Origin: Dehalococcoidales bacterium
Lineage (GTDB): Bacteria; Chloroflexota; Dehalococcoidia; Dehalococcoidales; UBA3254
NCBI GenBank assembly: GCA_016926695.1
Contig: JAFGOB010000001.1
Span: 19,535 to 83,534 of the forward strand
Length of the DNA: 64,000 nucleotides
Direction of reading: 5' to 3'
The notes beneath the pieces are model-generated. The model had not been told where the DNA came from. It searched no databases and worked only from the letters and a program-made list of their open reading frames with translations. The position numbers and the translations under genes are program-made. Numbering within the stretch: position 1 is the first letter of the stretch; every line of letters begins with the position of its first letter. This document shows, piece by piece, positions 1-24,626 of this stretch.

Positions 1-629
1 TGCATTTTTCCGGAATAGACTGCCTGCTGGATAGTCCCCAGTACTCCGCCCGGATATACCAGATTGCGGTACAGATTACCCCAGGTCTCCCAGGGCGTAA
101 TTGTTTTCAAATGAGGCGGTTGTTTACCAGCCGCCAGTAACTGGGATGCCGAGAAAATACAGATACCAATCATGCCCACATTACCGTCACACCAGGGTTG
201 CTGGGCCATCCACTCGATCGTATCATAGCTATCTTCGGCCATAGAGCCAAATAGACCCACGTATTCGCCTTCTGAATGGCCAATGCCACGTGGGTCCGGG
301 ATAACAAACACATACCCCCGTGTTACCATGTAGTCGATATCGCCAGCTTCGAGATTCCCATCCCACAAAGGAGATACAAAAGAGCGTAATCGCGGCAGCC
401 AGCGCACCATTTCCTGGTTGTCCTTGCCGAACGGAGACATAGCCAGAAGGGCTGGGAATTTACTGCCGGCCTGCACATCAGGGCGGTAGATGTCAGTCAT
501 AATATTAACACCATCCCGCAAAATGATACGGACATCTTTTTCTACTTTTACACCATATTTGGGCTGGGACCATTTATCCTTATTAAGGGCATATCTGGGA
601 TCGATATATTTCGCATTGTATCTTGGCAT
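1..629 (-). CDS. CocE/NonD-type alpha/beta hydrolase, C-terminus beyond the window, Cys at the nucleophile position
   Basis: The first 209 residues of an X-Pro dipeptidyl-peptidase/cocaine-esterase (S15) type hydrolase are present; the rest lies outside the window. The ATG at 629 follows an AGGAGGTTAT ribosome binding site (631-640). The N-terminal half shows the family pattern of a beta strand with DGVNIMTDIYRP (about 39-50), then DPRGIGHSEG (about 112-121). The nucleophile elbow, normally GxSxx after DGNVGM, reads GICIF, so Cys157 (159-161) replaces the expected Ser. The following PPHLKTITPWE stretch matches the family well, so the alignment is firm. Family members hydrolyse esters or amides. 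It is the last visible gene of the leftward arm that starts at 5422. Whether a Cys enzyme is active, or the protein is a non-catalytic homologue, cannot be told from the fragment. Confidence 0.85.
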   Translation of the reverse strand, partial: MPRYNAKYIDPRYALNKDKWSQPKYGVKVEKDVRIILRDGVNIMTDIYRPDVQAGSKFPALLAMSPFGKDNQEMVRWLPRLRSFVSPLWDGNLEAGDIDYMVTRGYVFVIPDPRGIGHSEGEYVGLFGSMAEDSYDTIEWMAQQPWCDGNVGMIGICIFSASQLLAAGKQPPHLKTITPWETWGNLYRNLVYPGGVLGTIQQAVYSGKM

Positions 630-674
630 GATAACCTCCTTTTTTTATGTCATCTGCTCTGGTGATATTCTCCA

Positions 675-1559
675 TTAAGTCTTTAACCACGGCTTGTTAC
701 CGCCTTGCAAGGCGCAATGCTCATCATGGCATTTCGTACAGTCCGTCTGGCGGAACTTCCTTGATATCTTCGCTCCTTTGACAGCCTCAACATAAGCTAT
801 GGCTTTTTTGATCTGGTCATCGTTACCGGAGATGACCATAGTGACGGCTCCTTCAGCTCCATCGACACCTCCTGCCGCAATAGGAATCGCTGTGGATCCG
901 CTCAAAATTTCAATAGCTTTTGACTCCGTAACTACTTTTCCTTCACACGGTAGCAGCGAACACCTGCCGCCCATACTATAATCCAGTGTTAATCTTTCTT
1001 TAGCCGTTTTCATAGCCTCTTCGATCGATATGGGTATCATTTTTTCTAATCCTGCGGGGAAAATAACCGTGAATCCCTTTTTCTTACTTGTGGCCATAAC
1101 CCGGCCAATCGTCCCTCCCTCCGTAAGGTTGCCAATCAGCACACCCACCTTCCCTTGAGGGTCAATTGCATTTACTCCTTTAATATAGACGTCTCCGGGT
1201 TTCATCCTGCCCAGAAGGCTACCCAAAGTTTCTCCCTGGCTCAATATTCCTTTCTCAATCACCCAGGTGAAAGGAAAGGCTTCCGGACCTGTACTGGCTC
1301 TGGCTTCAGGATGGGTGGACATCCAAACTTTAACGGCATCATCTCCGCAAGCAGCCCTGGGAGTAATCGCTCCACACATCCAGACCTCGGTATCAGGAGT
1401 TTTACCCAAGATTTCTTCCACTACAAAAAGAGTACTGCTGCTGGGATGCAGGGTGACGATTCCTGTCTTTAAGGCGTTCTTTACTTCATCCGTAGCAGCC
1501 AGAGCTTTAGCAATCAATTTCTTTGATTCATTGGGTAGTAGTGATATCTGAGCACGCAT
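675..1559 (-). CDS. Unrecognised protein, 294 aa, paralogue of the 19492-20361 product, C-terminal CxxCxxxxC
   Basis: I do not recognise this family. The start ATG has an AAGGAG site just upstream. The protein looks soluble, with no signal peptide or membrane segment. It is clearly homologous along its whole length to the product of 19492-20361. Shared blocks are SKKLIAKA near residue 13, HPSSST near 39, GDVYIKGVNA near 124, FPAGLEK.IPIS near 167, ILSG..A.PIA near 218, GAEGA.T near 236, and a C-terminal Cys triad (DCTKC....C) that could bind a metal or an FeS cluster. The phrase IKGVNAIDPQGKVGVL loosely recalls LUD/CoA-transferase-like folds, but this is only an impression. It sits between a CocE-type hydrolase and an alpha/beta hydrolase; its paralogue sits between a glycyl radical enzyme and its activase. 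A role in the same catabolic pathway is likely. Confidence 0.75.
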   Translation of the reverse strand: MRAQISLLPNESKKLIAKALAATDEVKNALKTGIVTLHPSSSTLFVVEEILGKTPDTEVWMCGAITPRAACGDDAVKVWMSTHPEARASTGPEAFPFTWVIEKGILSQGETLGSLLGRMKPGDVYIKGVNAIDPQGKVGVLIGNLTEGGTIGRVMATSKKKGFTVIFPAGLEKMIPISIEEAMKTAKERLTLDYSMGGRCSLLPCEGKVVTESKAIEILSGSTAIPIAAGGVDGAEGAVTMVISGNDDQIKKAIAYVEAVKGAKISRKFRQTDCTKCHDEHCALQGGNKPWLKT

Positions 1560-1799
1560 GTTTCGCTCCTTTTTTATTTTTTCTTATTCGATTTAACTGA
1601 AAAGTATCTTTTAAGGAGTGAATTCGAGTAGATGCCCTGGCAGTAAGCTGGCATGGCACTCACTTCACGTTCGTCAGGAAGAACTATTCAGGAATTTTTT
1701 TAGAAGCTACCCCGATAAAAGGCACCTTCGTTCTCCCTTTAGATAAGTATGACTATCCTGACCGCAGAACAAGATACATTTCAATATACGATCTACCTG

Positions 1800-2599: not shown

Positions 2600-4021
2600 T
2601 TATTTTTTCCCACTAACTGCCAGATCAATTATTTCCTGAACGTTGTCCACCTGCTCCAGCTTCTCGACCAGCTCGACTATTTTCTCACCGTTGCCCCTGC
2701 TCATCTTTTCAGAAAACTCAACCTGGCCCATGAATTTCTCGATCAGGCCCTCCCGGGGCAGAGGGTTGGAGGGGTCTCCCAGCGCCATACGCAAATATTC
2801 ACGGTATACCTGCCCGTCCTTCATCCTGACTTCCAGCTCCACGCCTTCCGGCCGGTCCAGATTGGCCAGCGTGACCCTCCTGATCAGGGACTGTGTCTGA
2901 GGATTACGGATGCCCTCTTCGGTAAAATTTTCTCCCTTGGACTGGTGGGTGGACAGGCCGTTGGCTACCGCATAGACAAAACTGAAAAGGGCATCGCCTG
3001 TCGGATAATACCCCACCTTGTAAGGCTTGGTATAGTGCGGCGCGGTAGCCATGCCCGCCGAGGTGCGGTAAACAGCCTCGGCAACGTCATCCGGGTGGAT
3101 ATCATATTTTTTCGCCAGCGTAATGGCAAGCTGAGTGGCTGCGTTGGTCGGCCTGCCGCCAGGCCAGGGTTTGAAGATCCTTTCCACATAGTATTTTTTG
3201 CCCAGGTCTGCGGTGATCATCTCCGGGTGGACAACTCCCTCCGTAAAGGCGCTATAGTAGCTGGTCAGCGGGTCTGAAATCCCGATCCACCCACCCCTGG
3301 CCAGTTGGGCGGCATTAATACCGCTTCTGGCGGCTGTACCCTGACTCAATTTGAAGGTATGGGCGCCTTCCATTAAGCCTCCCCCGGCCCCTGCCATCAT
3401 ATTGATGGCAATACCGAAGGTATTCTTCATCTGGAATTCCGTCAGTCCCAGCAGTCGTCCGGCAATGGCAGCGGCGCCAAAGGTGGTCTTGGTCCCCCAT
3501 TCGTCGAATACCCTTGCTCTTTTCGCGCCCCCTGCCGGCATTTTTCCGGGGACATGTATTCCGGCGCCTATCTGGACCCTGGCTACCAGATCGTCGCCCG
3601 CTACCAGGGCCGCAATCAGCTCTTTGCCGTCGATACCCAGGCTGGCCCCAAGGGTGATGGCAGTGGGTACGGTTGTCTCACTGTTGTGGCTGGCATTGTG
3701 TTGGCCGTTATCCATAATAATAACCAGCGGGCCCCAGTCGAAAGAGCGGCCGAAGATGCAGTTGACCATGGCTACCAGGTCTGCCGGCCCTTTATAGCCG
3801 TATCCCAGCAGGGTGGCTTCTCTCTTTCCTCCCTCATCCCGCACCATATCCGCCAGTACAGCGTTGCCCGGCGCGTTTGAACCGCCGATTATACAGCCGA
3901 TCATGTCCAGGACTCTTCTCCTGGTGTTGTCCACAACCACCGGATCGATATCCTCAAAACGCGTATTAAGAACATTGCGGGATAATGCTGCAATCGCCTC
4001 CTGCCCGTTGAAACTATACAT
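2600..4021 (-). CDS. MmgE/PrpD family protein
   Basis: A 473-residue protein of the MmgE/PrpD fold, which includes 2-methylcitrate dehydratase, cis-aconitate decarboxylase and iminodisuccinate epimerase. Family marks include RRRVLDMIGCIIGGS near residue 29, the central glycine-rich GRLLGLTEFQMKNTFGIA helix region, and the long C-terminal lobe with KPYKVGYYPTGDALFSFVYAVA. The length is typical. The start ATG has a GGGAGG site. Neighbouring genes are an FAD oxidoreductase upstream and a hydrolase downstream. The enzyme probably acts on a branched carboxylic acid as a dehydratase, decarboxylase or epimerase. A second, divergent family member is at 52087-53472. Confidence 0.88.
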   Translation of the reverse strand: MYSFNGQEAIAALSRNVLNTRFEDIDPVVVDNTRRRVLDMIGCIIGGSNAPGNAVLADMVRDEGGKREATLLGYGYKGPADLVAMVNCIFGRSFDWGPLVIIMDNGQHNASHNSETTVPTAITLGASLGIDGKELIAALVAGDDLVARVQIGAGIHVPGKMPAGGAKRARVFDEWGTKTTFGAAAIAGRLLGLTEFQMKNTFGIAINMMAGAGGGLMEGAHTFKLSQGTAARSGINAAQLARGGWIGISDPLTSYYSAFTEGVVHPEMITADLGKKYYVERIFKPWPGGRPTNAATQLAITLAKKYDIHPDDVAEAVYRTSAGMATAPHYTKPYKVGYYPTGDALFSFVYAVANGLSTHQSKGENFTEEGIRNPQTQSLIRRVTLANLDRPEGVELEVRMKDGQVYREYLRMALGDPSNPLPREGLIEKFMGQVEFSEKMSRGNGEKIVELVEKLEQVDNVQEIIDLAVSGKK

Positions 4022-4075: not shown

Positions 4076-5422
4076 TTACGGGAGCAGTACGTCCTGCCGG
4101 GCCAGGCATTTTTGAAGGAGCTTATAGTCCAGGTCCCTGACTGATACTCCCTCTTTCATGGACAGGGCAGCAGCCGTGCCGGCTGCTTGCCCCATAGCGA
4201 TACAAAATTGAATCGGCGCCAGCAGGTCGTTAGCCACCAGGTCAGAAGAAAAACAGCGTCCGGCCGCCAGCAGGTTATTTATCTGGCAAGGTATCAGGGA
4301 ACGATAGGGTATGTGCCAGTGCGGATGTTCGGGTGAAAAGGTATGACGGAAATCCGGGCATTTGACGATTGTATCCGGGAATACCACACCGGAAAATATT
4401 TCCTTCTCCGTTAAGACATGCTCGCCCAGTAGTCTACGGCTACTGCGTACGCCAATCTGTGAGGCAGTGTCCAGGATGTAGCTGTTTTCAAAGCCGGGAA
4501 TGTATTTCTGTAAATAGCGGTGCGTAGTCAGGATACATCTGCGGCCTTCCACCTCCAGCCGGGAAAGATCGCTGACATCCAAAGGGTCCAAGCCGCCCAC
4601 GGCATTGTTGACCCATATCACATCTTCGCGGGTTGTGCTGATATAATGGGTAAACCCTCCCATTTTTTCAAGCTCACGCATCCTTTCAGCAAATCCGGCA
4701 GCATCTGACGACCTGAAGTCAAGATATTTTTTTGAGTCGATATTGCCGATGCGGAAGGTTAAAGCCAGGTGGGAAGACCTCATTTGCGGATTCATCCGGG
4801 CATCATAAGGGGCGCCGGCCGAAGCAAAAATATCACCATCGCCGGTGGCATCGATGACGGTCCTGCCCAGTAACGCCTGCCTGCCAGATTTACTCTCGAA
4901 AACCACACCTTTCATCACGTTATTTTCCACCAGGGCCCGGACCCCCCAGGAATGCAGCAGCAGCGTTGTTCCAGACTCAGTAACCATATCATTCAGAACG
5001 CACTTCAGAGCCTCCGGGTCTAGGGTGGCGCTCATTCTGATCCTGCCTTCAATCACGCTGAAGGCAAAACGTTTCCAGCGGGCAATCAACTGGCTGTCGC
5101 TGGACCCCAGGTCTTCCTTTCCGGGGTGGATGGCTGATCCCGTTCGGTCCAGCCGTTCGATTACTTCCTGGCAGATACCGCCTATTTGCTGTTGGCTCGT
5201 ACCGTCACTCATGGGCATGATCACCATGACCAGTCCCCCGCTTGCCATGCCACCCAGATGCCCGTATCTTTCCAAAAGTACGGTATCCGCTCCATTCCTG
5301 CTCGCTGCAACCGCAGCGCTGAATCCCGCCGGACCGCCGCCCACTACCACTACATCGGCTTCTTTAAAGACTTTGATTTCCCGGTCAGGTTCCTGGATAG
5401 TCCTGTTTTGCTCGTTCGTCAT
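4076..5422 (-). CDS. FAD-dependent oxidoreductase (FAD_oxidored family)
   Basis: A 448-residue flavoprotein with an N-terminal Rossmann motif GGGPAG (28-33) followed by LLERYGHLGGMASGG, typical of the FAD_oxidored (pfam12831-like) family. A second FAD contact, VIDATGDGDIFASAG, lies near residue 190. The C-terminal region with RSLIPCQINNLLAAGRCFSSD also matches this family. No signal peptide or FeS motif is visible. It is the first gene of the leftward operon, divergent from the MarR regulator gene, with a GGGAGC site before the ATG at 5422. Members oxidise or reduce diverse organic acids; the substrate here is unknown. Confidence 0.88.
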   Translation of the reverse strand: MTNEQNRTIQEPDREIKVFKEADVVVVGGGPAGFSAAVAASRNGADTVLLERYGHLGGMASGGLVMVIMPMSDGTSQQQIGGICQEVIERLDRTGSAIHPGKEDLGSSDSQLIARWKRFAFSVIEGRIRMSATLDPEALKCVLNDMVTESGTTLLLHSWGVRALVENNVMKGVVFESKSGRQALLGRTVIDATGDGDIFASAGAPYDARMNPQMRSSHLALTFRIGNIDSKKYLDFRSSDAAGFAERMRELEKMGGFTHYISTTREDVIWVNNAVGGLDPLDVSDLSRLEVEGRRCILTTHRYLQKYIPGFENSYILDTASQIGVRSSRRLLGEHVLTEKEIFSGVVFPDTIVKCPDFRHTFSPEHPHWHIPYRSLIPCQINNLLAAGRCFSSDLVANDLLAPIQFCIAMGQAAGTAAALSMKEGVSVRDLDYKLLQKCLARQDVLLP

Positions 5423-5700
5423 ATGCGATAGCTCCCTGTGTCCGGCCTGTTACCTGAAAGAACAATGGCAGATCCTGGTATATATGGAGGTGTACCTGAT
5501 TATAGTCAATCTTCGCCCGGCTTATCAACCTTTAAATATTTTAAAAAGTCATCAATAAAGTGGCTTCCAACATGGGAAGCTACTTTGACTGGAATAACCA
5601 GTGTTTTTAGCAACTCATCAGTGATTAAGCTAAAGTATTACAACTATTGTAATATTTTTGCTTTTTTTATATAATTAGTCAAATCGATATATACGCCGTT

Positions 5701-5716
5701 CCTATAAATATATAGG
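5701..5716. promoter_or_regulatory. Operator-like palindrome upstream of the MarR gene
   Basis: A perfect dyad, CCTATA-AATA-TATAGG, lies 27 bp before the GTG start of the MarR gene inside the 320-bp divergent intergenic region 5423-5742. Its length and AT-rich symmetric form suit a MarR-family operator. Its position would let one dimer control the regulator gene and perhaps both arms. This is an inference from symmetry and position. The rest of the intergenic region is AT-rich, with a small hairpin (GCTTCC 5563-5568 / GGAAGC 5575-5580) and no clear gene. Confidence 0.5.
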
Positions 5717-5742
5717 CGACGTCAGCATACAGGAATGTTGCG

Positions 5743-6300
5743 GTGATACCATCATTATCTGAAATAGAAAAGGTTAACGCTCAAATCCGCAGCACACAGT
5801 TTTCACGCCTGGTAGCTTTTGCGGACGTTGTTACCAGGTACACTGAACTGGTTTTTAAAATCAAAGGAGACCAGATCAGTTGGTTGCGTGCGAGCGCGCT
5901 GCGTTTTATTATTACTCGCGGGGGAAGTCTCACCCTCAGCCAGATGGCGGCTGTCATGCTGCGTTCGAATTACAGTATAACCAAACTCGTTGATGGCCTT
6001 GAAAATGACGGACTGGTGAAACGCTGCCGCAATATAGCGGATGGGCGCAGTTTTGATGTGAAGGTTACACAAAAAGGGCTGAATTACGTAATTGAGAGTT
6101 TAAAAAACTCTGAAACTGCCGAAAACGAGCTGAAGTCCTGCCTGAGTGAAAGTGAGTTAAATGATCTGGCCATTATCATGCGTAAATTGCGGGATAAGCT
6201 GATTGAAAAGGTCTCTGCCAGATACAGACTCACCCTTGAAGACCGCCAGGCCATCTTCGGTAAGGTCAACTATCGCAAGCCCAACCAAGAGCTATCCTGA
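5743..6300 (+). CDS. MarR-family transcriptional regulator
   Basis: A 185-residue winged-helix protein. Residues about 50-110 form the MarR domain: a recognition helix in LTLSQMAAVMLRSNYSITKLVDGLENDGLVKR and a wing with RNIADGRSFDVKVTQKG, the classic D-G-R-S wing pattern. The start is GTG with only a weak AGGA element upstream. MarR proteins usually bind a short palindrome as dimers and are released by a small phenolic or other ligand. A suitable palindrome lies at 5701-5716. The gene is the first of the rightward arm, and its stop is 26 bp from the next gene, so it is probably both autoregulated and the local regulator of the island. Confidence 0.9.
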   Translation: MIPSLSEIEKVNAQIRSTQFSRLVAFADVVTRYTELVFKIKGDQISWLRASALRFIITRGGSLTLSQMAAVMLRSNYSITKLVDGLENDGLVKRCRNIADGRSFDVKVTQKGLNYVIESLKNSETAENELKSCLSESELNDLAIIMRKLRDKLIEKVSARYRLTLEDRQAIFGKVNYRKPNQELS

Positions 6301-6326: not shown

Positions 6327-7109
6327 ATCATTACAGCCGGTCTCGATGCAGGCACGGAAATAACCAAAGCCGTACTCCTTAAAGGAAGGGATATCATAGC
6401 CTGGGCGGCTATTTCCGCGGGCAGAGAATCTGCAGATCAGGCAGCCCGCAGGGCCCTGGACAAGGTGTTGGAGAGGAGTGGAGGAGAAGAAAAGGATATT
6501 GAGTTTATCGTCTGTACCGGCATGGGCAGGGAGTACGTGACCTTTGCCAGGCAAAAGCTGCCGGAATTCATGTGTTTAGCCAGAGCGATCGATTTCCTCA
6601 CACCAGCCGCCAGGATATTGCTGGACCTGGGCGCCCGCCAATCAATAGCCATCAAATGCCGCGGAGGGAAAGCCCTGAAGCTGGCTCCCAGCAGCAAATG
6701 CGCCGCCGGCACCGGCGCATATTTAAAAATGGTGGCTAATATTTTCAATCTGACTGTCGATCAGATGTCAGAGCTATCGTTTAATGCGAAAGCAGATCTG
6801 GAAATACAGACTACCTGTGCGGTTTTTGCCGAGTCTGAAATCATCTCTTTGATCCATAACAGCGCCGGAGCTGCGGATATTCTCAGGGGCGTTTTCCGGG
6901 GTCTGGCTGAAAGGCTATATCCCCAGCTTCTCGAAATCGGCATAGAGAAGGAGATAGCCGTAACCGGTGGATACGCAGGGAACAAAGCGATTATTGCTGC
7001 TCTGGAAACGCTGGCTGGTTTTCGTCTCCTTGTACCGGAAAATCCGATCATCACAGGGGCCCTGGGGGCTGCCCTTATCGGCCAGACCAGGAGGAGCGAA
7101 ACAGCATGA
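6327..7109 (+). CDS. HgdC/BadF-type ATPase, degenerate copy, probable ATC (or ATT) start
   Basis: An ASKHA-fold ATPase of the HgdC/BcrA/BcrD family, which drives one-electron transfer to a dehydratase or benzoyl-CoA reductase. The first ATG/GTG/TTG codons lie near 6465 and would cut off the phosphate-binding loop. In-frame homology (AGLDAGTEITKAVLL) continues back to 6327. There ATC-ATT follows an AAGGAG site (6315-6320) at 6-9 bp spacing. Starting at 6327 gives 260 aa, exactly the length of the next gene. The cluster Cys residues are Cys125 (KCAAGTGAY) and Cys164 (TCAVFAESE), spaced as in HgdC. The second phosphate motif reads DLGARQ in place of DxGGQD, so ATP turnover by this subunit may be impaired. 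It overlaps the next gene by 4 bp. Confidence 0.85.
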   Translation: MITAGLDAGTEITKAVLLKGRDIIAWAAISAGRESADQAARRALDKVLERSGGEEKDIEFIVCTGMGREYVTFARQKLPEFMCLARAIDFLTPAARILLDLGARQSIAIKCRGGKALKLAPSSKCAAGTGAYLKMVANIFNLTVDQMSELSFNAKADLEIQTTCAVFAESEIISLIHNSAGAADILRGVFRGLAERLYPQLLEIGIEKEIAVTGGYAGNKAIIAALETLAGFRLLVPENPIITGALGAALIGQTRRSETA

Positions 7110-7888
7110 TAGCGGCCGGGGTAGATATAGGTTCTTCCGCTTCCAAGGCGGTAATCCTGGAAAACAATAAAATCATATCAATGAGCATTATCCCCACAGG
7201 GATTGACAGCGCCGAAACGGCCAGGCGCGTGATGGAAAAGGCGCTGGGATCAGATGGAATGTTGATGAAGGATATCCAGTGTATCGTCTCTACCGGCTAT
7301 GGACGCGTCAATGTACCTTTCGCCCGTAAGAATATCACTGAGATTAGCTGTCACGCCCGTGGGATCAATTACTATTTCCCTTCGGTGCGCACAGTCCTGG
7401 ATATGGGCGGACAGGACTGTAAAATTATACACTGCGACGGCCAGGGGAATATCCTCAAATTTGCCCTGAATGACAAATGCGCAGCCGGGACCGGCCGTTA
7501 CCTGGAGCGTATCTCCTCCGCGCTGAGCATTCCTCTTCAGGATATCGGTCCTCTTTCGTTGCAGACGATAGAGGGAGGGGTACCCATAAGCAGCTACTGC
7601 GCCATTTTCGCCCAGGACGACGTGATTACACTGATCAGACAGGGCAAAAATATCAATGATATCCTGGCAGGGGTCTGCGACGCTCTGGTTGAGAGGATTC
7701 TAAGCCTGGTACTAAAGCTGGGAATGGTTGAAGATTTTTCAGTCTGCGGGGGCATTGCTAAAAATAGCGGAGTGGTCAGCCGTCTGGAAGATAGATTGGG
7801 CGCAAAAGCGCTCATAGCGCCTGAGCCGCAAATTGCTGGAGCCCTGGGTGCAGCAATTTTTGCCCGGGAGATGGCAGAGAGATCCTGA
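7106..7888 (+). CDS. HgdC/BadF-type ATPase, canonical copy
   Basis: A 260-residue activator ATPase of the HgdC/FldI/BcrA-D family. It shows the loop GVDIGSSASKAV at the N-terminus, an intact second motif DMGGQDCK, and the two cluster ligands Cys125 (DKCAAGTGRYLE) and Cys165 (SYCAIFAQDD). In this family a homodimer or heterodimer holds one [4Fe-4S] cluster between subunits and uses ATP hydrolysis to inject an electron at very low potential. Its ATG overlaps the stop of the upstream homologue (ATGA), so the two are translationally coupled and likely form a heterodimer. That arrangement resembles BcrA/BcrD or BzdP/BzdQ of class I benzoyl-CoA reductases more than the single activator of most 2-hydroxyacyl-CoA dehydratases. 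Confidence 0.9.
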   Translation: MIAAGVDIGSSASKAVILENNKIISMSIIPTGIDSAETARRVMEKALGSDGMLMKDIQCIVSTGYGRVNVPFARKNITEISCHARGINYYFPSVRTVLDMGGQDCKIIHCDGQGNILKFALNDKCAAGTGRYLERISSALSIPLQDIGPLSLQTIEGGVPISSYCAIFAQDDVITLIRQGKNINDILAGVCDALVERILSLVLKLGMVEDFSVCGGIAKNSGVVSRLEDRLGAKALIAPEPQIAGALGAAIFAREMAERS

Positions 7889-7946
7889 GACGAAGTTGTG
7901 TTCAGAATAACCGCATAATTGATTTTTTGCCGAAAGGTGAGTAAGA

Positions 7947-9092: not shown

Positions 9093-9114
9093 ATATTGCG
9101 TCAGAGGGGATCAT

Positions 9115-10368: not shown

Positions 10369-10408
10369 TCCGGGACGGGTGGAATCGAATTGGTTGGTGG
10401 AGGAAAAT

Positions 10409-14376: not shown

Positions 14377-14487
14377 CTAAAGCAATTTTTGGCGAACAGT
14401 GACGATTTGCTTCGAACATCGATGCAGATTGTTTCCAAAATAAAATCAGAAAATTCGCCAGGTGCAATTAATAATGGGTGGTAATCG

Positions 14488-15270
14488 ATGAAGCATGAAG
14501 AAGGTAACTTTAAAGGATTCAAGGATTTTAAAATATATTTTCAGGCCTGGTTGCCAGAAAATAAACCGATAGCTGTCTTGTTAGTTGCTCACGGATTTGC
14601 CGAACACAGCGGACGCTATGGCAATCTTGTGGACTATTTCATACCCAGGGGTTATGCAATCTATGCCCCCGACCATCGCGGACATGGCAGGTCGGATGGC
14701 GAACGCGTCCAGGTGGACGACTTTCACGATTACATTGTAGACCTCAAGACCTTTTTTGATATCGTAAAGCTAAGAAATCCGGAGCAGAAAATATTTCTAA
14801 TCGGCCACAGCATGGGATCGATTATAAGCCTCACTTATGCTCTGGAGTATCAATATGAGCTGGCTGGTTTGATAACTTCTGCCGGAGGAATCATCAAACA
14901 GGGCGACCCGCCGATGCCGCCTCCACCGCCCGGGAAGTCCCTTCCTATATCCATGTTAAGCCGTGATCCGGCTGTGATTGCAGCCTATAAGAATGATCCT
15001 CTGGTTTACCATGGTCCCGTCCCTCCCAATCACGCAATGAGGAGTATGATGGGTCTGCTTGCCGCAGGCGTGCAGAATATCACCTTACCGGTACTGGCTA
15101 TGGCTGGAGGATCGGAACGGCCCCGCTGTCAGGCTTTATATGATTTGATAGGGTCTCAGGATAAGACTATAAAAATCTACGATGGACTGTTGCATGAGAT
15201 ATTTAATGAACCCGAACATTTACAGGTTATGGCGGATATTGAGAAGTGGTTAAGTAAATTTGTCCGGTGA
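14488..15270 (+). CDS. Monoacylglycerol-lipase-like alpha/beta hydrolase (serine aminopeptidase S33 fold)
   Basis: A 260-residue hydrolase with the Hydrolase_4 pattern of bacterial monoacylglycerol lipases and lysophospholipases. HGFAEHSGRYGNLVDYF near residue 36 is the signature oxyanion segment, DHRGHGRSDGERVQVDDFHDYIVDL follows, and GHSMGS places the nucleophile at Ser108. The C-terminal His is in DGLLHEIFNEPE. The ribosome binding site is weak (GGGTGG). The gene lies between a carboxylesterase and a GlpD-like gene, so release of glycerol or a fatty acid from a lipid-like ester is an attractive but unproven role. Confidence 0.85.
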   Translation: MKHEEGNFKGFKDFKIYFQAWLPENKPIAVLLVAHGFAEHSGRYGNLVDYFIPRGYAIYAPDHRGHGRSDGERVQVDDFHDYIVDLKTFFDIVKLRNPEQKIFLIGHSMGSIISLTYALEYQYELAGLITSAGGIIKQGDPPMPPPPPGKSLPISMLSRDPAVIAAYKNDPLVYHGPVPPNHAMRSMMGLLAAGVQNITLPVLAMAGGSERPRCQALYDLIGSQDKTIKIYDGLLHEIFNEPEHLQVMADIEKWLSKFVR

Positions 15271-15307
15271 TAATTTATGCTTGCATAAACTTTAAAATGG
15301 ATTTCAC

Positions 15308-16918: not shown

Positions 16919-16957
16919 AATCACTCTGTAAAATTATTCACATGAGTGGAGGCAGAA

Positions 16958-19360
16958 ATGGAGAATTTGACCAGCAGAATCCGCCGCGGTGGGTTTCCCC
17001 TGTGTATCGAAAAGGCGCGGCTGATAACGGAATCATTCCAACAAACAGAGGGCGAACCGGCGATTATCAGGTATGCCAGGGCATATTCACATATGCTGGA
17101 ATACATGCCTGTCTTGATTGATAACTTTGAGCTTTTTGTAGGAGAAGGGGCCAGTAAACCCTGGGGGGCTGAAATAGACCCTTTTCTGGGCATCTGGAAG
17201 GAAGAGGAGATCAGGGGTGCGGCCGAAGATGGGATTATCTCGATTGAAGAGGTTGACTGGCCGATGTTAAGAGAGATCGGCCGCTACTGGGAGACCAAAT
17301 GCTCGGAATATATGCAATCGAAGCTTTACGATGAAAGACTTTTCAAATACCTCCAGCTTGGCATCACGCTTCCACCGATGAGACAGAAAAATGAGTTCAG
17401 AGGGGCCTATGCCGGCAGCGGGCTCTCCCTGTCATTCAACTTCACGGACTGTTACACGGACCACGCCAGGTGGCTGCGTGGTCTCGACCCGATTATAACC
17501 GAAGCTGAAGAAGAACTGCGTAATTTGAGGTTTTTGACCCGGGATGACGTAGAGAAGAAGCTTTTTCTGGAGGCTACGATAATGGTTCTCAGGTCTGTCA
17601 TCCGGCTGGCCGGCCGGTACGCCGATACAGCCGCGGCACTGGCAGAGAAAGAAAAAGAACCTGGTAGGAAAGAGGATCTGAGAAGAATAGCCGGGACGTG
17701 TCGTCTGGTACCCGCCAATTCGCCCGGGAGTTTTTATCAGGCCATGCAGTCGCTGTGGTTCGATCAAATTCTATTTACGCCTACCTCAACCCATAATTTG
17801 GGCAGATTCGATCAATATATGTACCCCTTCTATAAAAAGGACAGGGAGGAAGGCCGGATCAGCGATGAGGAAATCCTGGCATTGCTTGGAGAGTTACGCC
17901 TCAAATGTATGAGGCCTGAGAATATCAAGCTTTCAAAAGCCAAGCGATCGCAGCATGCCGGATTCGCTAAATGGCGAAATATGACCATCGGGGGAGTTGC
18001 CCCTGATGGAAAAGACGCCAGTAATGAGCTTACATACCTGGTCCTGGAGGCAGCCAACCGTTTCAGGACGCCTCATCATACTATTACGCTGAGAGTTCAT
18101 GAAGGGACTCCGGAAGACCTGCTGGTCAAAGCGCTGGAAGTGGTCAGGACTGGCATCGGTATGCCGGCCCTGGCACTGGATAAGTCTTTTCTTGAATATT
18201 TAACCGCCGGCGGTATTCCTGTACAGGATGCTCGTAACTATCATCTCGCGGGGTGTGTTGATCCGGCTATTCCGGGAAGAGCCAGTTTTTTGGCTGGTTC
18301 CTTTTTTGTAGTGCCTAAGGTAATGGAAATCTTTCTAAATAACGGTATGGACCCGCGGACCGGCCTGGAAGCGGGCCCTTTTAAACCGGAAGTGGAAAAC
18401 CATATAACTTTTGAAGAGTTTTATACCTCTTTCAAGAGCTTCCTGGCCTATTTCATGGGACTATGGCATGAACATAGTTTTCTCACCCTTGGATACTCCA
18501 GAGACGCCCAGAGCTATTATGACGCCGTAGAGATTCTCGAAACCGCCCTGGTGCAGGATGGAATTAAAGAGGGAAAGCCACTCTCAAGAAGAAAAGCTGA
18601 ACCTCCATATGACTTCAGGGCCATGATGGTGCCGGTTGGTGCCATCAATGTCGCGGATTCACTGGCAGCGATCAAGATGCTGGTTTTCGACGAAAAAAAG
18701 ATCAGCCTGGAGCAACTGAAAGAAGCCCTGGCAGCCAACTGGGAAGGCTGTGAAAATATCAGGAAGCTGTGCCTCCGGGCGCCCAAATACGGCAATGATC
18801 AAGACTATGTCGACCTGATTGCCAGGGACCTCTATGAATTCATCATCGACGAGGAGGCGAAATATCCTGTACCTGCACGACCGGTAAACGGGAAAACCAG
18901 AGGTGTTGGCGGGGCTTCTATTTCATCGATGTTTGCAGGCGGCATGATAATCGGCGCTACGCCGGACGGGAGATTTGCGGGTACCACATTGTCAGACGGG
19001 ACAGTCTCTCCTGCCCAGGGAAGAGATACCCACGGCCCAACAGCTTTACTCAGAAGCGCGGTCAAGATAGAACAGTCCCTTTGTTCTTCAATGTTGCTCA
19101 ATATGAAGCTCCACCCCTCGTCTATAACGACCAGAGAGGACCTGAAAAAGCTGGGGAGCCTGATTAAGACGTATGCCGAGATGGGAGGCAAATGGATCCA
19201 GTTTAACGTTGTTGGCAATGAACAGCTACTCGACGCCCAGAAGTTTCCGGAGAATCATCGTGACTTGATTGTCAGAGTAGCTGGATACAGCGCCTATTTC
19301 GTAGACCTGAGCAAAGGCGTTCAGGACGATATCATCAGGCGTATGGAGGTTAGCATTTAG
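16958..19360 (+). CDS. Glycyl radical enzyme (pyruvate formate-lyase superfamily), unknown substrate
   Basis: An 800-residue glycyl radical enzyme. The ATG at 16958 has a GGAGG site (16948-16952); the in-frame GTG at 16946 lies over this site. The C-terminal radical loop is RVAGYSAYF with Gly776, preceded by the usual QFNVVGNEQLLDAQKFPE block. The thiyl Cys433 lies in HLAGCVDPAIPG. Dehydratase/eliminase members carry GCVE or GCIE; here Asp435 replaces the Glu that acts as base. The enzyme lacks the double Cys of pyruvate formate-lyase itself. Its activase is encoded 1 kb downstream, with the unrecognised 19492-20361 gene between them. A C-O, C-N or C-C bond eliminase or a fumarate-adding enzyme are both open; sequence favours the eliminase group. 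Confidence 0.9.
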   Translation: MENLTSRIRRGGFPLCIEKARLITESFQQTEGEPAIIRYARAYSHMLEYMPVLIDNFELFVGEGASKPWGAEIDPFLGIWKEEEIRGAAEDGIISIEEVDWPMLREIGRYWETKCSEYMQSKLYDERLFKYLQLGITLPPMRQKNEFRGAYAGSGLSLSFNFTDCYTDHARWLRGLDPIITEAEEELRNLRFLTRDDVEKKLFLEATIMVLRSVIRLAGRYADTAAALAEKEKEPGRKEDLRRIAGTCRLVPANSPGSFYQAMQSLWFDQILFTPTSTHNLGRFDQYMYPFYKKDREEGRISDEEILALLGELRLKCMRPENIKLSKAKRSQHAGFAKWRNMTIGGVAPDGKDASNELTYLVLEAANRFRTPHHTITLRVHEGTPEDLLVKALEVVRTGIGMPALALDKSFLEYLTAGGIPVQDARNYHLAGCVDPAIPGRASFLAGSFFVVPKVMEIFLNNGMDPRTGLEAGPFKPEVENHITFEEFYTSFKSFLAYFMGLWHEHSFLTLGYSRDAQSYYDAVEILETALVQDGIKEGKPLSRRKAEPPYDFRAMMVPVGAINVADSLAAIKMLVFDEKKISLEQLKEALAANWEGCENIRKLCLRAPKYGNDQDYVDLIARDLYEFIIDEEAKYPVPARPVNGKTRGVGGASISSMFAGGMIIGATPDGRFAGTTLSDGTVSPAQGRDTHGPTALLRSAVKIEQSLCSSMLLNMKLHPSSITTREDLKKLGSLIKTYAEMGGKWIQFNVVGNEQLLDAQKFPENHRDLIVRVAGYSAYFVDLSKGVQDDIIRRMEVSI

Positions 19361-19491
19361 TGTCTTGTGACAGATCAGCTTTTTAGTTGTTGATTGAGGC
19401 ATTCAGTAGGATCTGACAATAGCAGGCAATTGAAATAAACTGCTGATAAACAAATCAGGAGTTTAGCGAATAGAGATAAAGGAGGGAGAAG

Positions 19492-20361
19492 ATGCTGGCC
19501 CAGGTTGTCCTGACTCCCGCGGAGTCTAAAAAACTGATTGCTAAAGCCATTGCCCGACTCGATGTAGTTAAACAGGCAGCGACGGATGGTATGATTGTGA
19601 TACATCCAAGCAGCAGTACCTACTTTATTATTGAGGAACTAACCGGGTCAAAACCCAGGACCAACTACTGGGTTTGCGGAGTGGTTACGCCCAGGGGAAT
19701 GTGCGTCGAGATGGCGATGGCGTCCGGAGACCGCTCTCCTCGAACCGAAAAATTTGATCCAGGCAAACTCCGGGGTCTGTGGGCGATAAAAAAAGGAAAG
19801 GTTGTAACCGACGGTACCACATCTGAATTAATGGAACAGATGACACCTGGTGACGTTTATATCAAAGGCGTAAATGCACTGGACTCCCAGGGTAACGTGG
19901 GTATTTTAGTCGGCGAACGAGGAGGCCTGGGTGTGGTGCTTTCAGCCTGGAAGAAAAAGCAGTTCACCTTGATCTTTCCGGCAGGACTGGAGAAATTGAT
20001 TCCTATATCTGTACGGCAGGCTGCGATAGAGGCCAAGCAAGCCAAATACGAATACGGTATGGGATTACCCGCCGGCCTGTTTGCTTATCCCAGCGGAAGA
20101 TCAATAACCGAAATAGATGCGGTTAAAATATTAAGCGGTGCTGTGGCAGTACCCATTGCCTCAGGCGGACTGGGTGGTGCTGAAGGAGCAGCGACTCTGA
20201 TTATTAAAGGTAGAAACAAACAGGTTAAAGACGCACTGGGATTTATTGAGCAATCAAAGGGAGCCAAACTGCCTGCGTTACGTCTGTCCAATTGCAGCGA
20301 TTGCTCGGTCCCGCACTGCCGGTTTCCTGTCGGAGATAAACACTGGGTTCAGGGTATGTAA
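19492..20361 (+). CDS. Unrecognised protein, 289 aa, paralogue of the 675-1559 product, C-terminal CxxCxxxxC
   Basis: I do not recognise this family. The ATG has a strong AAAGGAGGG site. It aligns end to end with the product of 675-1559: SKKLIAKAIA (13-22), HPSSSTYF (about 38), GDVYIKGVNALDSQGNVGIL (about 119-138), FPAGLEKLIPIS (about 162), ILSGAVAVPIASGGLGGAEGAATL (about 210-233), and a Cys triad in NCSDCSVPHC near the C-terminus. No membrane segments are visible. It is placed between a glycyl radical enzyme and its activase. That position, together with the Cys triad, suggests an accessory or metal-binding role in the same pathway, for example a partner of the radical enzyme or a separate catabolic enzyme. 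The function is not established. Confidence 0.78.
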   Translation: MLAQVVLTPAESKKLIAKAIARLDVVKQAATDGMIVIHPSSSTYFIIEELTGSKPRTNYWVCGVVTPRGMCVEMAMASGDRSPRTEKFDPGKLRGLWAIKKGKVVTDGTTSELMEQMTPGDVYIKGVNALDSQGNVGILVGERGGLGVVLSAWKKKQFTLIFPAGLEKLIPISVRQAAIEAKQAKYEYGMGLPAGLFAYPSGRSITEIDAVKILSGAVAVPIASGGLGGAEGAATLIIKGRNKQVKDALGFIEQSKGAKLPALRLSNCSDCSVPHCRFPVGDKHWVQGM

Positions 20362-20420
20362 AATCCAGAAAATGAACAGGTAAACAATACTTGTTTCTGA
20401 TATGAAAACTGGGGCTGTTA

Positions 20421-21347
20421 ATGCACAAAGATGAAGCAACCAGGGGAGTTATTTTTAACGTCCAGACATATTCCATCCATGATGGGCCCGGTATAAGAAC
20501 GACTGTTTTCATTAAAGGATGCCCATTGAGATGCGTCTGGTGCCAGAATCCGGAGTCACAGGTAATGGCGCCTCAGCTCTTTTTTAATAATGAACGCTGT
20601 GTTGGATGTGGGAAGTGTTTGAATGCCTGTCCGGAGGGGGCTATCAAATTAAATGAAGGGAAATCGTGGACTGACCGTGATGTCTGCAAGAGTTCGGGGA
20701 AATGTGTTGAAGTATGCCCTCATGAAGCAAGAAATATAGCAGGAAAATATATGACTGCCGGAGACGTATTCAAAACGCTAATGGAAGATAAAATATTTTA
20801 TGACCGGTCCGGTGGTGGAGTTACGCTGGGCGGCGGTGAGCCCCTGGCAAGCCCTGATTTTACGGCCAGTTTATTAAGACTGTGCAAGAATGCCGGCATA
20901 CATACAGCGCTCGATACATGCGGGTATGCCAAATGGGAGATTGTGAAGCAGATTTTACCTCATGTTGATTTAGTTTTATTCGATCTGAAGCACATGGATC
21001 CTGCCGCTCATCGGTTATATACGGGCGTGACAAACGAGGTAGTACTGGAAAACGCCAGGAGAATTTGCCAGGAACTGCATGTCCTGGTATGGGCCAGGAT
21101 TCCCGTAATACCAGGTTTTAATGATTCTTCAGGAAATATCGAAGCAACCGGAAAGTTCATTGCCTCCAAACTGGGAGCTTCAACAGAGGTTTATTTATTA
21201 CCATACCACAGGCTTGGCGAAATGAAATATCACAGGCTCGAACGACCGGGAAATCCGGTCTTTATCAATCCACCGGATGAGAAGTCCATCTTTAAACTAA
21301 AGGAAGTTTTTGAATCCTTTGGTCTTAAGGTACACGAAGGAGGATAA
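20421..21347 (+). CDS. Glycyl radical enzyme activase (radical SAM)
   Basis: A 308-residue radical SAM protein. The SAM cluster motif CxxxCxxC is present as CPLRCVWC near residue 34, after the family motif SIHDGPGIRTTVFIKG. An inserted ferredoxin-like domain follows with ERCVGCGKCLNACPEGAI and CKSSGKCVEVCPHEA, typical of activases of glycerol dehydratase, benzylsuccinate synthase and HPAD-type enzymes and absent from PflA. GGGEPLASPDF is the SAM-binding glycine motif. The protein should abstract the H from Gly776 of the enzyme encoded at 16958-19360. The start ATG has no strong ribosome binding site. Confidence 0.92.
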   Translation: MHKDEATRGVIFNVQTYSIHDGPGIRTTVFIKGCPLRCVWCQNPESQVMAPQLFFNNERCVGCGKCLNACPEGAIKLNEGKSWTDRDVCKSSGKCVEVCPHEARNIAGKYMTAGDVFKTLMEDKIFYDRSGGGVTLGGGEPLASPDFTASLLRLCKNAGIHTALDTCGYAKWEIVKQILPHVDLVLFDLKHMDPAAHRLYTGVTNEVVLENARRICQELHVLVWARIPVIPGFNDSSGNIEATGKFIASKLGASTEVYLLPYHRLGEMKYHRLERPGNPVFINPPDEKSIFKLKEVFESFGLKVHEGG

Positions 21348-21459
21348 AATTCTGGCCATGACATAACAGGTGTCATTTGGTAATAATATGATAGTTACAC
21401 GGAATGAATATGCTTTGCCCGGGTACCTTGGATAAAATCCAGATAAAAAGGAGTTGCTT

Positions 21460-22971
21460 ATGCTTCGTATAACCAAAACAGAAAATGGAATGGTCCGGGG
21501 ACTTCCCGCTGCCGATCCCAGAATCACTGTTTTCAAAGGAATACCCTTTGCGGCCCCACCTGTAGGAGAACTGCGATGGAGAGCTCCTCAAACGGCCAAT
21601 GACTGGCAAGGCGTCCGTGTGTGTTTGGAATTTATGCCCATCGCGATGCAGCGAATTCCGGGTGAAGATCCACAGGCCTTTTACGCGAAGGAATGGCACG
21701 TAGAGCCGGAAGTGGCAATGGATGAAGATTGTCTCTATCTTAATATCTGGACAAACGCCAAAACCGGTAATGAAAAAATGCCAGTCATGGTCTGGATATT
21801 TGGTGGCGGTCTGGTGGAGGGGTACCCATATGAAATGGAGTTTGACGGCGAGCGTATTGCACGCCGTGGCGTTATTCTTGTTTCGATTAATTACCGTCTC
21901 AATGTATTCGGATTTTTGACTCATCCGGAAATAATAAAGAACTCCCCCGATGGGTTTATGGCAAACTGGGGCTATCTCGACCAGAAGGCCGGCATAGATT
22001 GGGTACGGCGCAACATTGCCAATTTTGGTGGAGACCCCAATAATATCACGATTTTCGGTCAATCGGCAGGCGGCGGAAGTGTTCTGGCCCACTTGAACTC
22101 TCCCATGGCAAGAGGCGCTTTTGAAAAGGCTATCATACAGTCTGGAGGCGGTATCAATATTAAGGGGTTATTCGAGAAGATGGGGCCGCATCTTGACCTT
22201 CAGGGATTGGCGAAGCAGGGTGAAGCATTTTTCGACTATATCGGCGCCAGGAATCTGGCTGAGGCCAGGGCAATGGATGCTAAGATCGTTATGGCCAAAC
22301 ATACTCAATTCGATAAACACTGGAACCCGGTTATTGACGGAAAGTATATAGTTGAAGATTCATCTAAGAGCATAAGGGCCGGGCATCAACACAGGATTCC
22401 GATTATGATAGGCTCGACGAAGGATGAATTTCTCTTCGGTCCACCGGACGACAATATCGAAGCCTGGACCAAAGCAAATTATCCGGAAATTGCCAGTGAA
22501 TTCTGTAAACTGGTGCTGGAAAAAGCCTCCACCGAAAAGATAAGCCTTCAACGGGCGGCGATGAGAAACGGCTTTGAGCTTTCCGCCCTTCTATTCTGCC
22601 AGACTGTGGCCGAACAGGGGCAACAGACAGTCTTCAGCTATCGCTTCGGTCCGGAAATTCCTGGCGACAACGCAGGTGCTTTCCACTCCTCCGATCTCTG
22701 GTTTGAATTTGAAACACTGGCCAAATGCTGGCGTCCTTTTAAAGGTAAACACTACGACCTGGCGCGCCAGATATGCAGCTATTGGACGAATTTTGCAAAA
22801 AATGGTGACCCGAATGGACTTGATGCGGATGGTACGCCGATGCCGGAATGGACCTCGTATACTTCTAAATCGCCGCTGGTGATGGAATTTCTTGATGGCC
22901 CCGTAATGGAGAAACAGCAAAGTAGATTGATAAAGCTTTTACTTGAATATAATAAAATGTTATTATCATAA
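21460..22971 (+). CDS. Type B carboxylesterase
   Basis: A 503-residue type B carboxylesterase. I choose the ATG at 21460, six bases after AAGGAG (21448-21453); the in-frame TTG at 21454 lies too close to that site. Marks are GIPFAAPPVGELRWRAPQ near residue 25, DCLYLNIW near 90, the oxyanion loop IFGGGLVEG, and FGQSAGG with Ser202, in which Gln replaces the usual Glu before the nucleophile. The base His is probably in GAFHSSDLWF. There is no signal peptide. It lies between the activase and a flavodoxin-like gene, in the same rightward transcription unit. Confidence 0.9.
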   Translation: MLRITKTENGMVRGLPAADPRITVFKGIPFAAPPVGELRWRAPQTANDWQGVRVCLEFMPIAMQRIPGEDPQAFYAKEWHVEPEVAMDEDCLYLNIWTNAKTGNEKMPVMVWIFGGGLVEGYPYEMEFDGERIARRGVILVSINYRLNVFGFLTHPEIIKNSPDGFMANWGYLDQKAGIDWVRRNIANFGGDPNNITIFGQSAGGGSVLAHLNSPMARGAFEKAIIQSGGGINIKGLFEKMGPHLDLQGLAKQGEAFFDYIGARNLAEARAMDAKIVMAKHTQFDKHWNPVIDGKYIVEDSSKSIRAGHQHRIPIMIGSTKDEFLFGPPDDNIEAWTKANYPEIASEFCKLVLEKASTEKISLQRAAMRNGFELSALLFCQTVAEQGQQTVFSYRFGPEIPGDNAGAFHSSDLWFEFETLAKCWRPFKGKHYDLARQICSYWTNFAKNGDPNGLDADGTPMPEWTSYTSKSPLVMEFLDGPVMEKQQSRLIKLLLEYNKMLLS

Positions 22972-23007
22972 AGATCTTTTAAATACCTGAATTTGAGAGA
23001 GGTAAAG

Positions 23008-23655
23008 ATGAGTAAAAGATGTCTGATCACCTATTCTTCAATAACCGGCAATACAGAAAAAGTTGCATTGAGGTTTAAAAAAACATTTGAGGAAAGGGGC
23101 TGGCTGTGCGATATTTTCAAAGTAGGCAAAAAGGCTGATGATATTCTCAGACCTTCCTTTAATGTCCGTGCATATGATTTCATATGCGCTGGATCAGGCC
23201 TTAGAGCGCATTTACCTTATAATGAAATATTGAATATGCTAAGAGGATTTCGAACCGGGATGGACCCTCGCATTACCTTGAGAAACAGAGATGAAACGAT
23301 TCCTTATATTACCGAACCGATAGCCGATATTCCTCCTCATAAAAGTGCCAGGACTGATCATAAGAAAATTATCCTGGGACCTGATTCCCCCAAATCCGTT
23401 GTTTTCATCACCTACGCCGGATATGAATTCGGGCCTAAGGAAGCATTACCTGCCGTGCAGCTATTAGCCCTCGAACTGGAGCATATCGGTTTCCAGTTTA
23501 TCGGAAAATTTTGCTGCCCGGGCAAATACATTGACGACCCCATGCTCAGAACTTTCCACGGGGATATCCGTGATAGACCCAACGAGAAAGATCTGCTGAA
23601 AGCACAGCTCTTTATTGAAGAAAAGCTCGAGGAAATAGCTGACAGGACAAAATAG
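23008..23655 (+). CDS. Flavodoxin-like protein
   Basis: A 215-residue protein whose N-terminus has the flavodoxin FMN-phosphate loop (TYSSITGNTEKVA, residues about 6-18). I choose the ATG at 23008 (GAGAGGT site); an in-frame TTG at 22993 is the alternative. The middle part deviates from short-chain flavodoxins (about 140-170 aa) by an insertion with DETIPYITEPIADIPPHKS. The C-terminal half has VVFITYAGYEFGPKEALPAVQLL and GKFCCPGKY. It could carry low-potential electrons for the radical or HgdB-type enzymes of the island, or act as an NAD(P)H:quinone-type flavoprotein. The first would fit, since no ferredoxin gene is nearby. Confidence 0.72.
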   Translation: MSKRCLITYSSITGNTEKVALRFKKTFEERGWLCDIFKVGKKADDILRPSFNVRAYDFICAGSGLRAHLPYNEILNMLRGFRTGMDPRITLRNRDETIPYITEPIADIPPHKSARTDHKKIILGPDSPKSVVFITYAGYEFGPKEALPAVQLLALELEHIGFQFIGKFCCPGKYIDDPMLRTFHGDIRDRPNEKDLLKAQLFIEEKLEEIADRTK

Positions 23656-23684
23656 TCTAATTCACAAAAAGGAGTATAAAACCT

Positions 23685-24626
23685 ATGAGCATCGTGAATT
23701 CAGTTCTCGGACCTCTCGATACTAAAAAACTCGGCTTTACATTAATGCATGAACATGTGGTGAGTCAGGGTTTTGTTGCACGGGATTATCCCGAGCTTTT
23801 CGGCGAGCGGTTTTTAGACCGGATTATTGATGGAGTGGCAGCGGCCAAAAAAGGTGGAGTTGATACGATTGTAGATGCAACTACTTTCGATCTAGGGCGG
23901 GATGTGTCCCTTCTGGCTGAGATTGCCCGGCGAACCGGGGTCAACATCATAGCCTGCACCGGATGGTGGATGAACTTCCCTCAGTATTTAACCGGAACAA
24001 CTCCTGACTTGTATGCGGACCTGTTCGTCCGGGAAATTCAGGAAGGTATTGCCGGTACAGGAATCAAGGCCGGCATTCTTAAATCGGCTGCTGATTTTGG
24101 CGGCGTTACGGCCGAAGGGGAAATAATGCTACGCGCTGTAGCCAGAGCACACCTCAGGACTCAAGTTCCAATCATATTGCATTCATATGCGCCGGAGCAA
24201 GTAGCAAGGAAACAACTGGCAATTCTTAAGGATGAGGGTGTTGACCTGAAAAGGGTGGCAGTGGACCATGTAAATGATACCCGGGACATGGAGTACATTA
24301 TGTGGCTGCTGGAACAGGGATGCTTCCTCGGAATGGACCGCTATCCGGGCATGCACCTCAGTGCCCATGCCCGCACGGAAACACTAAAGTGGCTAATTGA
24401 TGCCGGTTGGACTGAACGACTTCTTCCCTCACATGACTTCGGTTTGGCTACTCCTTTGACTTTTTATCCCCCTGAAGTGAAAAAAAGTAATGAGAAAGGC
24501 AATCCGTACGGCTATCTTTATATCAAAAAGGTGGTCTTGCCTCAACTTAAAGAGATGGGAGTGCCGAAAGTAATATTAGACACTTTATGTGTAAACAGCC
24601 CAAGAAATTTTTTTGAAGGTCTGTAA
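23685..24626 (+). CDS. Phosphotriesterase/lactonase-family metal-dependent hydrolase
   Basis: A 313-residue amidohydrolase-superfamily TIM barrel of the PTE family. The metal ligands are readable in order: HEH in TLMHEHV near residue 22, the carboxylated Lys in AGILKSA near 126, His in IILHSY near 165, His in VAVDHVND near 192, and Asp in LPSHDFG near 259. The usual length is about 320 aa. Members hydrolyse phosphotriesters, lactones or N-acyl-homoserine lactones; physiological substrates are mostly lactones or phosphorylated sugar lactones. It is the last gene of the rightward arm and faces the SDR gene tail to tail. The start ATG has an AAAGGAG site. Confidence 0.88.
   Translation: MSIVNSVLGPLDTKKLGFTLMHEHVVSQGFVARDYPELFGERFLDRIIDGVAAAKKGGVDTIVDATTFDLGRDVSLLAEIARRTGVNIIACTGWWMNFPQYLTGTTPDLYADLFVREIQEGIAGTGIKAGILKSAADFGGVTAEGEIMLRAVARAHLRTQVPIILHSYAPEQVARKQLAILKDEGVDLKRVAVDHVNDTRDMEYIMWLLEQGCFLGMDRYPGMHLSAHARTETLKWLIDAGWTERLLPSHDFGLATPLTFYPPEVKKSNEKGNPYGYLYIKKVVLPQLKEMGVPKVILDTLCVNSPRNFFEGL

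Follow-up and report, generated by a model that had tools for sequence, protein, structure and literature searches.

Two radical enzymes in a probable divergent anaerobic catabolic island of a Dehalococcoidales bacterium

What could bring a glycyl radical enzyme (GRE), an ATP-driven radical system, paired coenzyme A (CoA)-transferases and many ester hydrolases together around a single MarR gene? The question is raised by positions 1-24626 of a 64,000-nucleotide stretch of DNA from a Dehalococcoidales bacterium (assembly GCA_016926695.1, contig JAFGOB010000001.1, positions 19,535 to 83,534), the whole of which is called here the window. Family searches recover every enzyme named in the original prediction of a divergent catabolic island: 21 genes form two divergent arms around the MarR gene, and the two radical systems, the GRE with its activase and the ATPase/HGD-D set, both lie on the + arm. 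Taken as gene content, an anaerobic island that combines ester and acid catabolism with two radical enzymes has good support, and a single pathway running through it is plausible. The explanation we prefer, at just short of an even chance, is a divergent and probably MarR-controlled island whose esterases, GRE of a "CxD" clade, BbsEF-type CoA-transferase and HGD-D enzyme would act as one flow. The genes that would take part, and the phosphotriesterase-family gene at the end of that stretch, are the following.

3-629, - strand: S15/CocE-type hydrolase (PF02129, 2.6e-35; GHSEG motif), extending past the window edge
1800-2579, - strand: alpha/beta hydrolase (PF00561, 5.2e-34)
6327-7109, + strand: activator ATPase A (TIGR00241, 148.4 bits, cut-off 125.4), with a putative start at ATC 6327 or ATT 6330
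7106-7888, + strand: activator ATPase B (TIGR00241, 233.6 bits, cut-off 125.4)
7947-9092, + strand: HGD-D subunit 1 (PF06050, 1.6e-69; BzdN best in PDB)
9115-10368, + strand: HGD-D subunit 2, divergent (PF06050, 5.8e-31), with a putative start at ATG 9115 in a frame that opens at 8995
10379-11650, + strand: CoA-transferase III like BbsEF chain A (9fn0_A 206.5 bits, next 131.8), without Asp at the nucleophile position
11667-12890, + strand: CoA-transferase III like BbsEF chain B (9fn0_B 260 bits, next 161.5), with Asp at the nucleophile position
12937-14376, + strand: carboxylesterase 1 (PF00135, 7e-92)
14488-15270, + strand: lipase-type hydrolase (Hydrolase_4, PF12146, 4.4e-57; GHSMG)
16946-19360, + strand: GRE of the CxD clade (PF02901, 2.3e-140; PF01228, 1.6e-27; C437, D439, G780)
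20421-21347, + strand: GRE activase (TIGR02494, 360 bits, cut-off 174.35; CX3CX2C and further cysteines)
21454-22971, + strand: carboxylesterase 2 (PF00135, 6.9e-96)
23685-24626, + strand: phosphotriesterase-family hydrolase (PTE; PF02126, 6.6e-63)

The surprising point is the GRE itself. It has the hallmarks of its family, with a glycyl loop RVAGYS (RVxGYS), a thiyl Cys437 and a radical S-adenosylmethionine (SAM) activase nearby, and among its close relatives (the best 120 of 3021 matches) C437 is kept in all 120 and G780 in 119, the last having a gap. The cysteine motif reads CVD, so that Asp439, two residues after the thiyl Cys437, replaces the CxE glutamate of the GRE eliminases. All 120 close relatives have this Asp, as do 118 of a more distant set (the best 120 of 815 matches), the other two having Glu. 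When the window GRE and those of the loci collected for comparison are taken together (76 different sequences), the 21 that are at least 44% identical to the window enzyme have Asp in 20 cases and Glu in one (L151), and the remaining 55 have V (38), E (5), S (3), Q (2), Y (2), Asp once (L083) and various other residues once each. A maximum-likelihood tree built from 45 GREs, after 31 rows of one CGCVVPH type had been thinned out, groups the 21 sequences in a branch with a support of 100/100. The Glu of L151 looks like a reversal because L151 is nested inside the clade, and the Asp of L083 looks like a separate gain because it falls outside. Within the branch the window sequence lies among those of Acidobacteria, SM23_31 and deltaproteobacterial metagenome-assembled genomes (MAGs), with one from Dehalococcoidia nearby. 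The closest organism-named matches among the best 120 of 3021 are Dehalococcoidales MAG proteins (82% and 77% identity), and overall CxD enzymes occur in MAGs whose names assign them to Chloroflexota, Acidobacteria, deltaproteobacteria, Bacillota and archaea. The class to which G003 belongs was covered by 393 genomes, and matches above 42% identity come from G003 alone, although the sole contig scan used two short peptide patterns, so that absence means little. More remotely, a GRE on a Novosphingobium plasmid (L001) is 39% identical to the window enzyme, and the 33 other window genes tried give no match to that plasmid stretch at 1e-10. Among the papers listed by literature searches, whose coverage leaves out most subscription journals, none dealt with a family of CxD GREs or with this combination of genes, and the clade is apparently both distinct and uncharacterised. 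An AlphaFold model built from 18 close relatives has a mean pLDDT of 63.6, with the Cys loop (435-451) and the glycyl loop (771-804) below 50.

The two CoA-transferases foreseen by the original prediction match, one to one, the two chains of benzylsuccinate CoA-transferase. In BbsEF only one of the two subunits is catalytic. At the position taken as that of the nucleophile in this family, an alignment of 14 sequences (the window pair and 12 relatives) has Asp in 7/7 B-type proteins and Tyr or Phe in 7/7 A-type proteins. The pair thus appears to consist, as in BbsEF, of two different CaiB-type subunits, one with a catalytic Asp.

The ATP-driven set comprises two activator ATPases and two HGD-D subunits, the subunit count of class I benzoyl-CoA reductase. 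The "HgdBC-type" system of the original prediction is therefore right as to the ATP-driven radical family, but its four genes come closer to the four-subunit layout of that reductase than to HgdBC with its one activator. In both ATPases the cysteines of CAAGTG and those of a second motif are conserved, and ATPase B has the activator of 2-hydroxyisocaproyl-CoA dehydratase and MbdQ as its best PDB matches. ATPase A looks truncated because of its probable start at a rare ATC or ATT codon; its DAGTEITK motif is intact, its N-terminus is in frame, and AAGGAG precedes the codons at 6327/6330. Although the layout resembles that of class I benzoyl-CoA reductase, no subunit reaches an equivalog cut-off for BzdNOPQ or BcrABCD (BzdQ 249.4/380.2 bits, BzdN 120.7/453.8, BzdO 36.6/448.6), and so the enzyme may be either a reductase or a dehydratase.

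From these parts a sequence of steps can be proposed. The alpha/beta hydrolases would split an ester, and the free acid would be attacked by the CxD GRE. Its most likely chemistry would be radical C-O or C-C cleavage, because Asp replaces the base Glu of the GRE eliminases, and its substrate would be one for which the base has to stand one carbon further back. The two-subunit BbsEF-type transferase would then put CoA onto the acid, and the four-gene HGD-D enzyme would reduce or dehydrate the acyl-CoA by ATP-driven single-electron chemistry. The sequence shows the genes, their motifs, the families to which the parts belong and the recurrence of parts of the neighbourhood; the order of the steps, the passage of one substrate through all of them, the regulation and the reaction of the GRE are inferred. 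A bolder extension, possible but somewhat doubtful, makes the CxD enzymes a new kind of GRE catalyst at the entrance of an anaerobic pathway for ester-derived acids, with the CoA thioester formed from the GRE product as the substrate of the second radical enzyme. If so, two separate radical reactions would take place on the same carbon skeleton.

Does the combination recur in other genomes? It does in part. The sample consists of ten genomes (G001-G010; L002-L011) whose clade GREs were found by a peptide-pattern contig scan. Their 20 clade GREs make 17 loci, one of which (G006:C132) has Glu, and are compared with 24 loci of other GREs; the rows of G351 and G493 and a G006:C196 row beside a clade GRE are left out, as are some rows that are fragments of one gene. 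With thresholds of E 1e-10 for carboxylesterase and S15 hydrolase, E 1e-40 for BbsF-like CoA-transferase and E 0.001 for HGD-D, a carboxylesterase lies within 10 kb of 6/17 clade loci (Fisher 0.0028 against the other GRE loci; uniform placement expects 0.46), an S15 hydrolase of 4/17 (Fisher 0.024; 0.31 expected) and a BbsF-like CoA-transferase of 5/17 (Fisher 0.008; 0.52 expected), each being near 0/24 of the other loci. At least one of the four classes is found within that distance at 10/17 clade loci and 0/24 others. The test assumes that loci are independent while some genomes are related, and MAG contig ends cut neighbours in both groups. In G001 the sole carboxylesterase found directly precedes the GRE, and in L002 the gene directly upstream of the GRE is 73% identical to carboxylesterase 1. 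The original prediction had suggested degradation of a complex ester or aromatic compound; nothing points to an aromatic substrate.

The fullest parallel is the 34-kb contig C114 of G006 (L149/L150). It carries MarR (36% identity), CoA-transferases (44%, 41%), HGD-D (25%), CoA-transferases (47%, 41%), HGD-D (23%), a TRAP-type transporter (our own reading of three open reading frames, ORFs), PGA_cap, PrpD, GRE (48%), activase, a further GRE (48%) and an S15 hydrolase. Two genomes titled Acidobacteria also combine a GRE with an ester hydrolase, a CoA-transferase and two HGD-D genes, as carboxylesterase, both HGD-D genes, CoA-transferase and GRE in L154 (G002), and as CoA-transferase, both HGD-D genes, carboxylesterase, activase and GRE in L158 with L009 (G008). 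Pfam confirms the HGD-D domains of L154, one further such domain of L009, and the PGA_cap and PrpD genes of L149. The clade GRE of L155, from a Jordarchaeum genome, has a PrpD relative and a PGA_cap-like gene beside it. That the two arms never co-occur, which the original prediction had named as its refutation, is not what neighbourhood comparison finds, as L149/L150, L154, L155 and L158 with L009 show. The themes of the arms do co-occur elsewhere, yet the parts are modular and not a fixed unit.

A PGA_cap gene recurs near clade GREs (L149:13848-14966, PF09587, and by eye L154:6842-7972, L155:604-1767 and L158:3839-4951), and none was found in positions 1-24626 of the window. Also near clade GREs is a cluster of related proteins (L002:12618-17968, L003:14503-16236, L006:8099-9805, L008:3164-4870), one of which, from L002, is a match to UGSC (PF24696). 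The cluster gene of L006 and L008 is divided into two frames, and a selenocysteine codon may be the cause.

The regulator, the palindrome beside it and the remaining genes of the two arms are as follows.

675-1559, - strand: NagB/RpiA-fold protein, paralog 1 (P0001, P1), with no Pfam family over cut-off and 45% identity to paralog 2
2600-4021, - strand: MmgE/PrpD-family protein (PF03972, 4.9e-32; PF19305)
4076-5422, - strand: FAD-dependent oxidoreductase (PF12831, 3.5e-91)
5636-5654, no strand: candidate MarR operator, a perfect palindrome TATTACAACTATTGTAATA overlying the MarR-side promoter-like site
5743-6300, + strand: MarR-family regulator (PF12802, 4.6e-9)
15308-16918, + strand: GlpD-like FAD dehydrogenase (PF01266, PF16901; 3da1 270.5 bits)
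19492-20361, + strand: NagB/RpiA-fold protein, paralog 2 (P0002, P2), with a Cys-rich C-terminal tail
22993-23655, + strand: flavodoxin-like protein (PF12641, 23 bits, under the Pfam cut-off of 27.5)

From 7106 to 24626 the largest gap between neighbouring genes of the + arm is 135 nt, and the arm can therefore be one long operon. The intergenic region 5423-5742 contains promoter-like sites facing both directions, and MarR may bind the palindrome TATTACAACTATTGTAATA. Its 15-base core, TTACAANNNTTGTAA, has a single exact match in the window, and its 3 matches with at most two mismatches are about chance level. The GlpD named in the original prediction is present as a GlpD-like FAD dehydrogenase, but its score of 344.6 is under the family cut-off of 360.

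The two arms were also supposed to be tied together by a paralogous pair of unrecognised proteins. The paralogy of P1 and P2 stands (45% identity over 296 columns), but the fold is recognisable: P2 matches a NagB/RpiA/CoA-transferase-like core fold, to which P1 is assigned through its identity to P2. The pair is not a specific tie between the arms, because relatives elsewhere adjoin many other gene sets (HyuAB, flavodoxin-like, CoA-transferase, esterase or FAD oxidoreductase genes), and none lies near the clade GREs compared; we reject it in that role. Among 156 genomes from the order to which G003 belongs, 14 have P2 relatives, two of these genomes at more than 60% identity. In L113 a P1-like gene adjoins a relative of the FAD-dependent oxidoreductase (71% identical), in L112 a P2 relative adjoins one of the flavodoxin-like gene (79%), and in L107 a P2 relative adjoins a HyuAB pair 63% identical to that at 39168-43014 of the window.

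The strongest rival of a single flow is a modular gene pool, a real possibility although below an even chance. Separate modules (GRE with esterase; CoA-transferase with HGD-D; PrpD with FAD enzyme) would share a location and perhaps regulation while serving different substrates. The varied company of P1 and P2 relatives suits it, as does L156, where both HGD-D and both CoA-transferase types (55-66% identity) occur on a 15-kb stretch from which the GRE is absent, and so do G001, G004, G005 and G007, where a GRE has a carboxylesterase and no HGD-D within 10 kb. Several results weigh against a single flow, and one of them, the lack of ATPase, GlpD and P1/P2 relatives near the clade GREs compared, also suits the modular pool. 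HGD-D genes lie within 10 kb of only 3/17 clade loci against 0/24 (Fisher 0.064; uniform placement expects 0.60, P 0.019), and 7/17 clade loci, some on short contigs, lack all four classes within that distance. No activator ATPase is found in the three loci with the combination; among the 19 stretches compared, ATPases are found only in L160 (HGD-D, no GRE match), and relatives of GlpD and of P1/P2 occur in 0/19. The Asp is not exclusive to the clade (L083, 1/55 other GREs), promoter-like sites over the whole region number 31 against 25.0 in shuffles, which is about equal, and family searches find no beta-oxidation set in 1-24626. What speaks against a mere pool is that clade GREs have CoA-transferase and HGD-D genes in their vicinity and 0/24 other GRE loci do, and that GRE, CoA-transferase and two HGD-D genes are joined in three loci.

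Two known kinds of pathway have also been considered. Fumarate addition as in anaerobic toluene degradation, in which the GRE would make a substituted succinate ahead of BbsEF-type activation and a benzoyl-CoA-reductase-like end step, would account for the BbsEF-like subunits and for the ATPase/HGD-D layout, but is improbable here. The window GRE has an acidic residue where TutD reads C-M-S, and no bbs-type beta-oxidation set is present in 1-24626. PMC12358834 gives benzylsuccinate synthase (BSS) two small accessory subunits and MASS three; the gaps of the + arm after 7106, at most 135 nt, seem too short for a small subunit, although subunits could be encoded elsewhere. A bbs-like set does occur with a different GRE, outside the clade, which has the motif CVG and TutD fourth among its PDB matches (L163:954-13998, G351). 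This candidate fumarate-adding pathway includes a CoA-transferase pair, an activase, two acyl-CoA-dehydrogenase-like ORFs, OYE-like, SDR-like and OB-fold proteins, and a thiolase. Glycerolipid scavenging, in which lipase, GlpD-like enzyme and a glycerol-dehydratase-like GRE would use lipid glycerol, is very improbable. The lipase-type hydrolase and the GlpD-like protein are there, and among PDB structures B12-independent glycerol dehydratase matches the GRE best (422.6 bits), but that score is barely above choline lyase (401.6 bits), GlpD relatives are missing from all stretches compared, and in the alignment the CxE Glu of glycerol dehydratase is Asp in the window GRE. On this last ground glycerol dehydratase function is rejected.

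The island may also be longer than predicted. The genes listed within 1-24626 are present, but catabolic genes run on past 24626: positions 26435-32338 encode a DMSO-reductase-type molybdopterin oxidoreductase, a 4Fe-4S subunit, an OYE-type enzyme and a third carboxylesterase, possibly of the same island. Further on, 44947-45949 holds a HEPN/nucleotidyltransferase gene pair.

Glycyl radical enzymes are the entry points to many anaerobic pathways, and a well-supported clade that spans several phyla, with a changed catalytic acid and links to ester hydrolases and CoA chemistry, is a testable lead on the use of organic matter by uncultured sediment microbes. How far does the single flow that we prefer resemble known systems? 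With the GRE eliminases (B12-independent glycerol dehydratase, choline TMA-lyase, HypD, isethionate sulfite-lyase) the window GRE shares the domain families, the thiyl Cys, the glycyl loop and a nearby radical SAM activase, but their CxE reads CxD and it reaches the cut-off of none of the 12 NCBIfam models listed for it. The likeness to benzylsuccinate CoA-transferase lies in two CaiB-type subunits, each matching its own chain. As in the toluene pathway of benzylsuccinate synthase, a GRE stands beside BbsEF-type subunits and ATPase/HGD-D pairs; the window differs in the acid two residues after the Cys, in a probable operon apparently without room for small subunits and in lacking a beta-oxidation set. 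Class I benzoyl-CoA reductase has the same pairing of ATPases with HGD-D subunits, but HGD-D 2 of the window scores only 36.6 bits to BzdO. The (R)-2-hydroxyacyl-CoA dehydratases have a HadAIBC layout with a type III CoA-transferase, and the window shares with them a CoA-transferase III, an ATPase and two HGD-D genes; it differs in having two ATPases and two CoA-transferases, and in scores far under the HadB and HadC equivalog cut-offs.

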